Shown here piece by piece: positions 2,211 to 8,426 of a stretch of 9,745 nucleotides of DNA. Numbering within the stretch: position 1 is the stretch's first letter; every line of letters begins with the position of its first letter. Both the position numbers and the translations under genes were made by a program. The DNA is taken from positions 1-9,745 of the forward strand of contig SXHM01000238.1 in NCBI GenBank assembly GCA_005773695.1, read 5' to 3'. Source of the DNA: Bacteroidota bacterium (lineage in GTDB: Bacteria > Bacteroidota > Bacteroidia > SXHM01). Below the pieces are notes generated by a model that worked only from the letters and a program-made list of their open reading frames with translations, ran no database searches and was not told the DNA's origin.

Positions 2211-3997
2211 TTATTTCACCTCCACAAAATACATTTCTATCTCGCCTTTTCCTTTCGCTTTTATTTTTCCGCGCGGTGTGCAGTTGAATTTTTTCTTCAC
2301 CAACTCATACGTAGCACCTGAAATATTAATCTTGCCGGGCTCACCGCTGCTTTCCATGCGCGATGCGGTGTTTACGGTATCGCCCCAAATATCGTAGGCA
2401 AACTTTTTGGTGCCCACTACACCGGCAACCACCGGTCCGGTATGTATTCCTATGCGCACATCAAAGAAATGCTGCTTTTTTTTCTGGCGTATTTTTTTCA
2501 GTTTGTTTATAAACTCCTGCATCTCAAGTGCTGCCTGAACAACATCGGCTGCATTGGTTTTGTTGGGTGTTGGCAAACCTCCGGCACACATATAACTGTC
2601 GCCAATGGTTTTTATTTTTTCTAAATTATACTTTGGCAATATGTGATCAAATGCACCAAAGATCATATCCAGTTCGCTTACCAGTTCTTCGGCAGATAAT
2701 TTTTCGGCCTGCTCGGTAAAGCCTTTAAAATCGGTGAAGAGCACCGTTACCTGTTTGTATTTGCGGGGTGCCACCTTTGCATTTTTCTTCAACTCTTCGG
2801 CCACCTCAGCGGGAAGAATATTCGGCAGCAACTCATCTGACTTGCGTTTTTCTTCGGCAATAACTTTGCTTTGTTTCTGAATTTTATCGTTGCGTTTTTT
2901 CAACTCTACATTGCGCAGTTTGAAAATTTCTGCTTCTCTGCGGCTCTTCTCCGTTTCATATCCGGTAACCAGTTCATTCAAACGGTTGCGTGCTTCCTGA
3001 CTGAACAACTCATCGTGCAACTGAAAAAACTTTAAGTGGTTTTTGTAGGCTTCTTCATAATCTCCTACTTTGGCATAGCTCTGCGAAATTTCTTTGTAAA
3101 TGTCTTTCTCCAATGGTTTTGCATTGGAGTCGGCAATCAGGTCTAAGGCAATTTTCTGATATTTCACTGCATTTTTCTGATCGCCTTTTGCACGGTATAA
3201 ATTTCCGATGTTGCTGTAAGTAGAGGCAATTCCCTTGGTATCGCCAATACTCTCTTTCAGCATCACTGATTTCATAAAATACCTGAGAGCATCATCAAAT
3301 TTCCCCTGCTTCTCATACACCAGACCAATGTTGTTGGTAATGAGGGAAAGGTTTTTTTATCGCCAACGCTTTCAGCTATTTCCAGCGCTTTTTTATTGTA
3401 GTCAATGGCTTTGCGGTCATTACCCGTTTGGCGGTGGATATTGGCAATGTTGCCCAAAACCATTATCAGTCCTGAAGTTTCTTTTGCTTTGTTATTTATG
3501 TCTAAGGCCTTTTCAAAATACTGCAATGCTTTGTTAAACTCGCCCTGTACTTTATACAACACCCCCAGATTATTATTGGCCGATGCCATTCCTTTTTTGT
3601 CGTCAATCTCTTCAAACAGTTTAAGCGCTTTCATGTGAGCATCCAGCGAACCGTCCATAGAGCCTTTACTTTTATTAACCACCCCACTTGCATTGAGCGA
3701 TTCGGCCATCTGTTTTTTCATGTTCAGGCCCGAATAATAATCACCGGCTTTATGCAGATGCTCAAGAGCAGCGTTAATATTGCTTTGGTTGAAATAGGCA
3801 ATACCTAAATTGTAATGACATTCGGCTGCGCCTTTTTTGTATCCCCTTTTTTCGGATTGCATTAAAGCTGCAAGCGCCAGTTCAATGCTTTGTGCCGCAT
3901 TTTCCTGACGAAGCTGTATGGCCTGTTTAATAAGCCCGTCAACATCAGGATTCGCTTTTTTTATCACCGGTTTCAGATATGGTTTCTTTTCTGTCAT
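2211..3997 (-). pseudogene. TPR-coiled-coil class III adenylate cyclase, split by a homopolymer frameshift
   Basis: Two overlapping frames together make one protein of about 595 residues from the ATG at 3997 (MTEKKPY). An ATG five codons earlier (4012) is also possible. The frame breaks in an A7 run (T7 on the plus strand, 3352-3358). One more A, or a -1 shift there, joins ...AESVGDKK to NLSLITNNIGLVYE and keeps the TPR spacing. Using the joined numbering, about seven TPR units lie at 57-330, spaced 40 residues, so they are the longer TPR_12/Kinesin-light-chain-like type. A charged coiled coil follows at 335-390, then the linker LLPNILPAEVAEELK, and a class III cyclase domain at 413-595. Metal-binding Asp423 (LFTDFKGFT) and Asp467 (IGDSYM), adenine-selecting Lys463 and Asp536 (YDIWGD), and Asn543/Arg547 (TVNTASR) are all present, so it should make cAMP from ATP. 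There is no transmembrane segment, so it is probably cytosolic, with the TPRs sensing a protein partner. It is divergent from the lipoprotein gene at 4110. Confidence 0.85.
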
Positions 3998-4037
3998 AAC
4001 TCTTAAAAACAAAATGTACTGAATAGCGCTTTCGTTT

Positions 4038-6305: not shown

Positions 6306-7748
6306 ATGCACCGCAGAGATTTTATCAATAAAAACACCCTGGCTCTGGGTGCCTTAAGTCTGGTTTCGGCTAAGTCAGTAGCGCTTGATTTTTTTCTGAA
6401 AGAAGAATTAGTAAGCAAGCGGCCACCCCTTGAAAAAAGAACCTTTACCAGCAAGGCAGTTGAAGCACAACTGAGCGAAGTAAAAGCGGCAATAAAAGAT
6501 AAAGAGCTGGCCTGGTTGTTTGAGAATTGCTATCCCAATACCTTAGACACCACGGTTGATTACGAGCCCATAAACGGCAAACCCGATACCTTTATTATTA
6601 CCGGTGATATAGATGCTATGTGGCTGCGCGATTCAACGGCACAGGTATGGCCTTATATTCCGCTTATTGCTAAAGATGATGAACTGAAAAATCTGGTAAA
6701 GGGTCTTGTTAGTCGTCAGGCAAAATGTGTGTTAAAAGACCCGTATGCCAATGCATTTTACAAAGACCTGAACAAAGAATCGGAATGGAAAAATGATAAA
6801 CCAAGTCCCCAACCCGGAGTGCACGAACGCAAGTGGGAGATCGATTCGCTCTGCTATTTTATAAGGCTTTCAAACCGCTATTATGAGCTTACGGGTGATG
6901 CAAGCGTATTTGATAATGAGTGGAATGAGGCGGCACATACGGTAGTAAAAACATTCCGCACCGAGCAGCGCAGAGACGGTACTACGCCTTATTATTTTAT
7001 CCGGAAAACTTTTAATCCTATTGATGCGCCTGTAAACGATGGCAAGGGAAATCCTGTAGAATTTAACGGAATGATTTGTTCCATGTTCCGCCCTTCTGAT
7101 GATGCAACTACCTATCCGTATTTAATTCCTTCCAACATTTTTGCGGTGCTCTCACTCAGGCAACTTTCTGTAATTTATAACACGGTGTTAAAAGATGAAG
7201 CATTTGCCAAAGAATGTGAAGCATTTGCAGAAGAAGTAGATGCCGCCATTAAAAAAAATGCGGTACTAAACCACCCCACCCTGGGTGAATTATATGCCTA
7301 TGAAGCAGATGGTTTTGGCAAGCAGCTTTTAATGGACGATGCCAATGTGCCTTCTTTAATTTCACTCACTTACTTAGGCGCTCACCAGCCCGATGATGCA
7401 ATTTATAAAAACACAAGAGCTTTTGTATTAAGCAACGAAAATCCATATTACTTCAAAGGCAAAGCAGCAGAGGGACAGGGCAGTCCGCATACCGGTAATA
7501 ACCAGATATGGCCCATGGGTATTATTCTGCGTGCGCTTACCAGCACCGATACTAATGAAATAAAGCAGTGTTTAAAAATGCTAAAACATACCCATGCCGG
7601 CACGGGCTTTATGCATGAGTCTTTTGATAAAGATAATCCTCAGCGTTTTTCGCGAAAATGGTTTGCCTGGGCCAATACTTTGTTTGGTGAACTGATGGTA
7701 AAAATTTACAGCGAGCACAGAGAATTGCTGGAACAGGAATATGAATAA
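6306..7748 (+). CDS. GH125 exo-alpha-1,6-mannosidase with Tat-like signal (480 aa)
   Basis: The protein belongs to glycoside hydrolase family 125 (formerly DUF1237). These are metal-independent, inverting enzymes that remove non-reducing alpha-1,6-linked mannose, for example from N-glycan or mannan fragments. Diagnostic motifs in order: GDIDAMWLRDSTAQVWPY (100-117), HERKWEIDSLCYFIRL (173-188), FRPSDDATTYPYLIPSN (261-277), GSPHTGNNQIWPMGII (392-407) and GFMHESF (434-440) followed by RKWFAWANTLFGEL. By comparison with the characterised Streptococcus pneumoniae enzyme (acid Asp220, base Glu393, recalled), the acid would be Asp265 or Asp266 and the base Glu438. The family core is about 430 residues; the extra N-terminus starts MHRRDFINKN followed by a hydrophobic stretch, a twin-arginine export pattern, so the enzyme is probably folded before export to the periplasm. 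No SusC/SusD, GH92 or other mannan gene is near, so it is an orphan here rather than part of a utilisation locus. Confidence 0.93.
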   Translation: MHRRDFINKNTLALGALSLVSAKSVALDFFLKEELVSKRPPLEKRTFTSKAVEAQLSEVKAAIKDKELAWLFENCYPNTLDTTVDYEPINGKPDTFIITGDIDAMWLRDSTAQVWPYIPLIAKDDELKNLVKGLVSRQAKCVLKDPYANAFYKDLNKESEWKNDKPSPQPGVHERKWEIDSLCYFIRLSNRYYELTGDASVFDNEWNEAAHTVVKTFRTEQRRDGTTPYYFIRKTFNPIDAPVNDGKGNPVEFNGMICSMFRPSDDATTYPYLIPSNIFAVLSLRQLSVIYNTVLKDEAFAKECEAFAEEVDAAIKKNAVLNHPTLGELYAYEADGFGKQLLMDDANVPSLISLTYLGAHQPDDAIYKNTRAFVLSNENPYYFKGKAAEGQGSPHTGNNQIWPMGIILRALTSTDTNEIKQCLKMLKHTHAGTGFMHESFDKDNPQRFSRKWFAWANTLFGELMVKIYSEHRELLEQEYE

Positions 7749-7800
7749 ACGCAACAAAGAAAAGACTGTTTAAAAAACAAATCATCAACTTGTGTGCCTT

Positions 7801-7926
7801 ATGAAAGCGCCTGTAAAAAATAAAACTCCTGATGATATTTACACCCAGCGTTTTCGATTTCTTCTGCGACTTATCCGCATCAATAAAATGCTGAGCAAAG
7901 CCAAAATTATTCCTGCAGAAAAATAA
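7801..7926 (+). CDS. Small basic protein (41 aa) coupled to a nucleotidyltransferase
   Basis: The frame starts at ATG 7801 and ends at TAA 7924-7926; its last A is the first base of the nucleotidyltransferase ATG (TAATG overlap). The protein is rich in Lys/Arg, with a likely amphipathic helix at about residues 12-35 (IYTQRFRFLLRLIRINKML), then KAKIIPAEK. It has no signal peptide. I recall similar short proteins with an RF..L.RLIR..KML..AKI pattern next to nucleotidyltransferase genes in Bacteroidota, but cannot verify this here. The one-base overlap implies translational coupling, and the pair looks like a toxin-antitoxin module in which this would be the smaller partner. No promoter motif was found in the 52 bases after the GH125 gene, so read-through from that gene is possible. 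Confidence 0.65.
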   Translation: MKAPVKNKTPDDIYTQRFRFLLRLIRINKMLSKAKIIPAEK

Positions 7927-8397
7927 TGGACATTCTTGATGAAGAATTTCTTGGCTTCTGGAAGTTACTTGATTCCAACACTGTAAAATACATCATGGTA
8001 GGCGGTTTTGCAACTAACCTCCATGGCTTTCAACGGACAACAGGTGATCTTGATTTATGGATTAAAGACACACTTGAAAATCGTAAAAAATTTCAGGAAT
8101 ACATTAAAAGAAGAAGCAAATGGAGATCTTGAAAGTATTGAAACAACACAATTAATTCCGGGCCGGACAGTTCTTTTCTTTCCTTCCGGTTTTGAATTGG
8201 ATATTATGACTTCATTAAAAGGATTTTCTGCAGCACGATTTTATGAATGCTACAAACTTTCACCCACAGCTTTGATTGAAGAAATTCCTGTAAAATTTCT
8301 GCACCTGAATCAATTGATAGAAGCAAAAAAAGCTGCCGGCAGACCAAAAGATTTGCTTGGTTTAATTGAACCGGAAAAAATACGGGATAGAAAATAG
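7926..8397 (+). pseudogene. Small MNT/AbiEii-like nucleotidyltransferase, split by an A6 frameshift
   Basis: Two overlapping frames join into one protein of about 156 residues if one A is removed from the A6 run at 8085-8090: ...TLENRK then NFRNTLKEEANGD. As written, the first frame ends early with an unrelated tail at the TGA near 8130. The joined protein has the full nucleotidyltransferase signature: VGGFATNLHGF (Gly26-Gly27), GDLDLWI with Asp41 and Asp43, and a third catalytic Asp92 in FELDIMTSLKG. Next come VKFLHLNQLIEAKKAAGRPKDLLGLIEPEKI, a C-terminal helix pattern common in these small proteins (AbiEii/DUF6036-like; exact family unsure). Such enzymes transfer nucleotides to RNA or protein, and several are toxins. 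It overlaps the 41-residue gene by one base. It may be decayed, or the break may be a sequence error, since the downstream half is intact. Confidence 0.78.
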
Positions 8398-8426
8398 AGT
8401 GCGAAACTCCACCCGCTTTTTCTATC
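8386..8426. terminator. Possible bidirectional terminator between convergent genes
   Basis: GATAGAAAA (8386-8394) pairs with TTTTCTATC (8418-8426). Inside is a second small hairpin, GAGT-GCGAA-ACTC (8397-8409). The structure spans the stop codons of both convergent genes (8395-8397 plus, 8422-8424 minus) and has a T5 run at 8417-8421 on the plus strand and a TATTTTC tract on the minus strand. The stems are AT-rich, so strength is uncertain. Confidence 0.4.

Follow-up and report, generated by a model that had tools for sequence, protein, structure and literature searches.

A short basic peptide gene paired with a MenT1-like nucleotidyltransferase in Bacteroidota: a candidate toxin-antitoxin cassette, interrupted at the locus studied

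The described system closest to the gene pair reported here is MenA1-MenT1 of Mycobacterium tuberculosis (Rv0078B-Rv0078A), in which the toxin MenT1 modifies tRNA and its partner MenA1 is short. Of 21 menA1 genes reported, 15 precede a menT-like gene; the same paper ascribes winged-helix and kinase domains to MenA4 and AbiEi, and kinase activity to MenA3, and no word starting with 'bacteroid' occurs in its main text (PMC10435456). The present locus lies in a stretch of 9,745 nucleotides (nt) from a Bacteroidota bacterium (assembly GCA_005773695.1, contig SXHM01000238.1), called the window below. There, the gene of a 41-amino-acid (aa) basic protein overlaps the start of a nucleotidyltransferase gene. 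Our preferred reading, at a probability of about 0.6, is that the two genes form a toxin-antitoxin cassette that works in the manner of MenA1-MenT1, has a one-helix antitoxin and is interrupted in the window. Judged by titles and the opening of abstracts, no such pair is described in the MenAT, AbiE, HEPN-MNT and survey literature searched (most subscription journals and all preprints lay outside it).

The pair is real, conserved and cassette-like. One scan of a species-level genome collection gave 37 enzyme loci, one of which (L037) ends at a contig edge, leaving 36. In all 36, a small open reading frame (ORF) ends between -22 and +17 nt from the enzyme start; for L031 this start is an estimate, the initial codons being lost. 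The small proteins are 41 to 81 aa long and share the core YTERF..LM.LIRI..ML..AKI, which reads YTQRF..LLRLIRI.KML..AKI in the window; the most divergent members (L030, L032, L033, L034 and L036) keep the position and part of the core. A profile hidden Markov model (HMM) was trained on one half of the loci and run against six-frame translations of the remaining ones; it found 35 of the 36 at E < 1 and 33 at E < 1e-3, and among 5982 six-frame pieces there were three further matches. The two halves are not wholly independent, because some loci are closely related (L022/L023, L032/L034, L024/L025/L031). The initial annotation of this DNA had predicted a small protein directly upstream of the enzyme, kept at the protein level; both expectations were borne out across these genomes.

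Protein searches found 739, later 1569, relatives of the small protein, and none of the 120 matches listed in either search carried a Pfam domain. The window protein itself matched nothing in Pfam or PADLOC, and the small family, searched by sequence against the PDB, gave three matches, none credible (best E 0.65). In the model of the 44-aa homologue at L001, the nearest locus, a single helix spans residues 13-36 (predicted local distance difference test score, pLDDT, 82). The peptide is basic and amphipathic, and Tyr or Thr is common ahead of the helix core. Upstream of the small ORF, the element TANNTTTG, which we take to be the Bacteroidetes -7 promoter element, was found within 70 nt in 14 of the 36 loci, compared to about 1.4 expected; at L001 and L002 it sits 16 nt before the ATG of the small gene, and it was not found in the 70 nt upstream of the window small ORF. 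Because of this enrichment, a separate transcript probably begins at the small gene.

Pairing was then counted in two further sets of genomes. Among 296 genomes of the phylum, 68 had an enzyme match at E <= 1e-10, and the six strongest enzymes (E < 1e-50) all had the small ORF, four of them through the small-gene search and two by direct inspection (L062, L063). In 147 genomes of another family, every one of the 15 enzymes at E < 1e-50 had the small ORF alongside, 13 of these ORFs coming from the search and 2 from reading the sequence; one of the 15 enzymes, in G348, has an internal stop. Enzyme homologues mostly devoid of the small gene, which the initial annotation had named as evidence against a pair, were not what these counts gave. 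The 147 genomes held 23 enzyme places at E <= 1e-30; two of the 8 weaker ones (1e-30 to 1e-44) were inspected, G400, where the partner is present and the enzyme broken, and G320, which is taken up below. Conversely, 14 of the 21 small-gene matches in these genomes adjoin an enzyme; beside the other seven, no enzyme match reached E <= 1e-30. Five of the seven lie next to enzyme relics or a degenerate enzyme (G094, G308 and G399; G378 and G393 weak); at G314 and G406, reading the adjoining sequence by eye gave nothing convincing as an enzyme remnant.

Both genes come and go jointly. Over 4.8 kb the window shares 91.6% identity with L001, and over 2.4 kb it shares 86.7% with L002. In G301, the two flanking genes (GH125 and the 420-aa gene) are present at 91% DNA identity, with 31 bp in place of the 676 bp of the window, and both genes of the pair are absent. 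At L002 the pair also follows GH125, with a different gene beyond; in G302 and G303 the gene after GH125 encodes 128 aa and has no relation to the pair. Identity between the window and L001 is 96.8% and 94.3% for the pair, above the 91-93% of the flanking genes; compared to L002, the pair is 78-80% identical and GH125 89-93%. The empty site of G301 argues for joint gain or loss, and the identities of pair and flanks suggest that lineages have probably exchanged the allele of the pair. No relatives were found in viral contigs or phages. A recurrent chromosomal site of the small gene, with or without the enzyme, was seen at L017, L026, L028, L092, L114, L119, L121 (where the small gene is broken) and L123; enzyme loss is seen there in several genomes. 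Its neighbours are presumably an ABC-transporter gene and an ATP synthase subunit a-like gene.

A protein search with the C-terminal enzyme piece of the window found 88 relatives, 29 of which form alignment A1 (alignment A2 omits the near-copies L025 and L031, and A4 consists of 33 picked by hand). Intact enzymes of 156 aa exist among them; one, P0002, is 91% identical to the window over the C-terminal part. The AlphaFold model of P0002 (pLDDT 91.8) has the MenT nucleotidyltransferase fold, and its best fold match in the PDB is MenT1, tied with TM1012. T39, D41, K134 and D145 are kept in 29 of 29 intact relatives, and D43 in 28; we equate K134 and D145 with K137 and D152 of MenT1 from their spacing. 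DUF6036 (PF19502) is carried by 40 of the 88 relatives, and all 29 aligned ones match it at E <= 0.1; against its cut-off of 23.6 bits, the window piece scores 13.4 and P0002, the nearest relative, 18.1. PF08843 (DUF1814/AbiEii) matches 20 of the 29 at E <= 0.1 (best 3.6e-5), the first member scoring 14.9 bits against a cut-off of 22.5. Pfam assigns DUF6036 no function, and the literature searched yielded no paper on it and no partner. Downstream of the pair, L032 and L034 carry another, more distant member of this nucleotidyltransferase family.

The observed basis for a toxin-antitoxin cassette is thus co-conservation, gene order and overlap, joint presence or absence at a chromosomal site, the fold, the invariant catalytic residues together with T39, and a small gene that persists where the enzyme is broken. 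From it we infer toxicity, target, binding and neutralization. The intact enzyme would add nucleotides to RNA, most likely to tRNA 3' ends, and this addition would stop growth. The single amphipathic basic helix would bind the enzyme and silence it, perhaps by steric block; alternatively, the helix may shift the active-site T39 and so induce self-phosphorylation of the enzyme, in the way MenA1 acts on MenT1. The toxin-antitoxin-like module first proposed for this locus remains the best-supported reading of the pair, with the correction that the enzyme of the window is broken.

The broken copies bear on two other explanations. In a set of 64 distinct loci, to which neither G320 nor the distant loci belong, 53 have a full-length enzyme frame (that of L128 lacking the DxD motif) and all 53 have the small ORF. 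Nine of the 11 loci without a full enzyme keep a full small ORF (the window, L031, L035, L116, L118, L119, L123, L125 and L130), L114 has a shortened one, and L121 has neither gene in full. If the enzyme were a non-toxic RNA- or drug-modifying nucleotidyltransferase and the peptide its helper, an activator or a subunit, the persistence of the small ORF at 10 loci with a broken enzyme would be hard to understand, since an obligate subunit would not explain it. The patchy, cassette-like distribution and the short antitoxin of MenT1, the best fold match, also speak against a helper peptide, and we regard it as unlikely. The polarity could also be reversed as in HEPN/MNT, where the MNT enzyme is the antitoxin (PMC7641770): the basic peptide would be the toxin and the nucleotidyltransferase an antitoxin modifying it. 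The basic, amphipathic character of the peptide and its frequent Tyr or Thr would suit such a scheme. A free toxin, however, should be the first to go, whereas the peptide ORF is intact without a full enzyme in nine loci, and this makes reversed polarity highly improbable.

Several observations temper the case for a toxin-antitoxin cassette. Were gene length the only factor in where breaks fall, all nine would hit the enzyme with a probability of about 0.08, which is not significant; because of this value, and because the sample was partly chosen by the small gene, loss of the enzyme first is support for, and not proof of, its harmfulness. Selection on the small ORF is also poorly visible at close range: the window and L001 differ by one synonymous and three non-synonymous changes, too few to judge constraint, and the ratio of non-synonymous to synonymous substitution rates (dN/dS) relative to L002 is 0.43 and 0.37, which indicates weak constraint. 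Finally, some enzymes have no visible partner, namely the more distant G320, L057 and L059. At G320 (L133, 279-1061; E 8e-44), no partner was found in the 300 nt upstream, and the enzyme frame is longer, 260 aa, with an N-terminal extension. The estimate of 0.6 for a toxin-antitoxin cassette was left as before after a re-check had added the G320 exception and more distant partners.

The features of the locus are collected in Table 1.

Table 1. Positions of the gene pair, its upstream element and its flanks in the window
Feature	Positions	Strand	Basis
Small partner gene, predicted antitoxin, 41 aa	7801..7926	+	ORF; conservation upstream of enzyme; held-out HMM
Nucleotidyltransferase N-terminal piece (GGFA...R.T.D.D), 68 aa, frame 1	7926..8132	+	HMM positions 1-62, E 5e-30
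Nucleotidyltransferase C-terminal piece (third Asp, Lys, R..D..), other frame	8098..8397	+	HMM positions 49-156, E 8e-47
Position of the TANNTTTG element of L001/L002, altered in the window	7785..7792	+	Alignment
Cassette extent, in window and L001; 31 bp instead in G301	7750..8425	.	Genome comparison
Left flank: GH125 alpha-mannosidase family gene	6306..7748	+	PF06824, E 1e-169
Right flank: CarboxypepD_reg-like protein, 420 aa	8422..9684	-	PF13715

In the window, the 41-aa ORF and its TAATG overlap are present as first annotated: the final A of the TAA opens the ATG at 7926, with the GG and DLD motifs downstream. A GTG at 7792 would lengthen the small protein to 44 aa. The single 156-residue nucleotidyltransferase ORF with a full catalytic set, also claimed at the outset, does not exist in the record; frame 1 stops at 8132, and the annotation had read across a frameshift. 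GGFA and DLD lie in the first piece, and the remaining 99 aa in ORF 8008-8397, in a different frame, so that the third catalytic Asp is out of frame with GG...DxD. The frame is lost near 8095-8130, and when the window is aligned with L001 and L002 the break falls on an A-run near 8094-8100. The window copy lacks the complete MenT active-site set, its frame being broken and column 145 altered.

Real decay of this copy is likelier than an error in the record. The branch leading to the window has seven amino-acid changes in the two enzyme pieces, compared to none on the L001 branch; columns 145 and 149, hit by two of them, are invariant, and columns 80 and 106, hit by two others, are conserved; enzyme dN/dS is 0.27-0.31, compared to 0.08-0.12 in three flanking genes (Fisher test, P = 0.013 on rounded counts). 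For the window alone, a sequencing or assembly error in a copy that is intact and working is the lesser, though still a considerable, possibility. The break falls at an A-run, and a TPR-guanylate cyclase gene (2211-4012, minus strand) is split into two overlapping frames near 3320-3360, also at an A-run. In four of five relatives this gene has an open frame spanning 608-618 aa, and in the fifth it runs into a contig end; the second break suggests homopolymer errors in the record. Besides the changes just listed, such an error has against it the altered promoter element and an identical protein piece on three contigs, which are perhaps not independent. If the record is right, the window copy would be a relic without function, its enzyme interrupted and its antitoxin ORF intact.

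Short upstream ORFs also accompany more distant DUF6036-type enzymes. A regular expression for a (S/T)..ER..A..L(R) helix matched such an ORF at 32 of 41 loci (the match in L085 is doubtful), and at 0 of 18 genes in a small control. Among the nine misses, a related-looking ORF was recognized by eye at L041, L049, L052, L056, L063 and L067, doubtfully at L083, and no short upstream ORF was seen at L057 and L059. At L066, L069-L071, L074-L082 and L086-L088, the short ORF and the enzyme share about 55-60 nt in different frames, at near-constant length. The L036 partner joins a window-type core (YTERF) to the tail of the other type (PRLDR..FS.RK). Profile-profile comparisons between partner groups and PF18993 members were weak and collinear (probability 0.5-22, with shuffled columns matching the score in 0-4 of 150), and 19 distant partners searched against NCBIfam and Pfam gave scattered single-member matches only.

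The initial annotation had spoken of a system of Bacteroidota. It is present there, but that limit is too narrow: five of six plasmid matches were opened, and a similar arrangement was found on two cyanobacterial plasmids and probably on an acidobacterial one, where an unannotated ORF of similar kind, recognized by eye, lies ahead of the enzyme. One cyanobacterial pair (L137, 1065-1638) stands beside a VapC toxin, a helix-turn-helix regulator and a type I restriction gene, its short partner being labelled 'toxin secretion, membrane fusion protein'; in the other (L138, 1068-1643), the short partner is intact and the enzyme frame broken. The plasmid neighbours of the enzyme in Fibrella and Spirosoma are a different, acidic protein and were rejected as partners. 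It is conceivable, though we hold it doubtful, that short helical antitoxins of 41-99 aa with the core (S/T)..ER..A..L(R) make up a large, as yet unnamed superfamily, missed by gene finders and family libraries, whose members pair with DUF6036 toxins in Bacteroidota, Cyanobacteriota and Acidobacteriota and silence these enzymes by inducing self-phosphorylation of the active-site threonine. The 41-aa form would then represent MenA1 at its smallest, reduced to the inhibitory helix. The pair described here offers a candidate function for DUF6036, and for short ORFs annotated as hypothetical or overlooked. Antitoxin-driven self-phosphorylation has been proposed as possibly widespread among DUF1814 enzymes with varying partners (PMC11375011), and this idea is directly testable here because there are many natural pairs with a one-helix partner and an invariant phospho-acceptor threonine.

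Sequence kinship of the partner to MenA1 is only hinted at. No member scored above the cut-off (27.1) of PF18993, the family of MenA1 and Rv0078B-related antitoxins, and one of 35 and one of 120 reached E <= 0.1 (0.064 and 0.075). Profile-profile alignment with PF18993 was collinear on the ER helix at a probability of 3.8-4.5, a score reached by 3 of 150 column shuffles with alignment A3 and 0 of 150 with A2. By sequence, direct membership in PF18993 lacks support. True PF18993 members in the 296 genomes number seven at E <= 1e-3, four of them above the cut-off; five of the seven (L043, L044, L045, L047, L048) adjoin a nucleotidyltransferase, and L042 and L046 do not. At L043 and L044, the PF18993-type short protein follows the nucleotidyltransferase gene instead of preceding it.

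The initial annotation held that the partner resembles no known antitoxin. This stands for HEPN proteins and AbiEi, but the layout does match the short MenA1 of MenA1-MenT1 (PMC10435456). A HEPN four-helix bundle is rejected by the one-helix model and the lack of any HEPN profile match, AbiEi by the length of 41-81 aa and the negative Pfam and PADLOC searches with the window protein, and a DNA-binding antitoxin by the single helix and the lack of family matches. The partner of AbiEii, MenT3 or MenT4 (AbiEi, MenA3 or MenA4) differs from the one helix found here. HEPN-MNT (HepT-MntA) is similar in being a mobile two-gene module of a small nucleotidyltransferase and a small partner; it differs in that no HEPN domain occurs here and the enzyme is the presumed toxin. 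With respect to MenA1-MenT1, the partner is 41-81 aa, with one helix modelled in the 44-aa L001 protein, compared to 68 aa for MenA1; the enzyme has about 156 aa, compared to 197; and position 38, an F used in MenA1 binding in MenT1, is T in 20 of 29 relatives. Both systems have a short antitoxin or putative antitoxin gene directly upstream of the enzyme and a partner without a DNA-binding domain; in both enzymes R37, T39, D41 and D43 are identically numbered, and the R..D..D spacing is that of R146/D149/D152 in MenT1.
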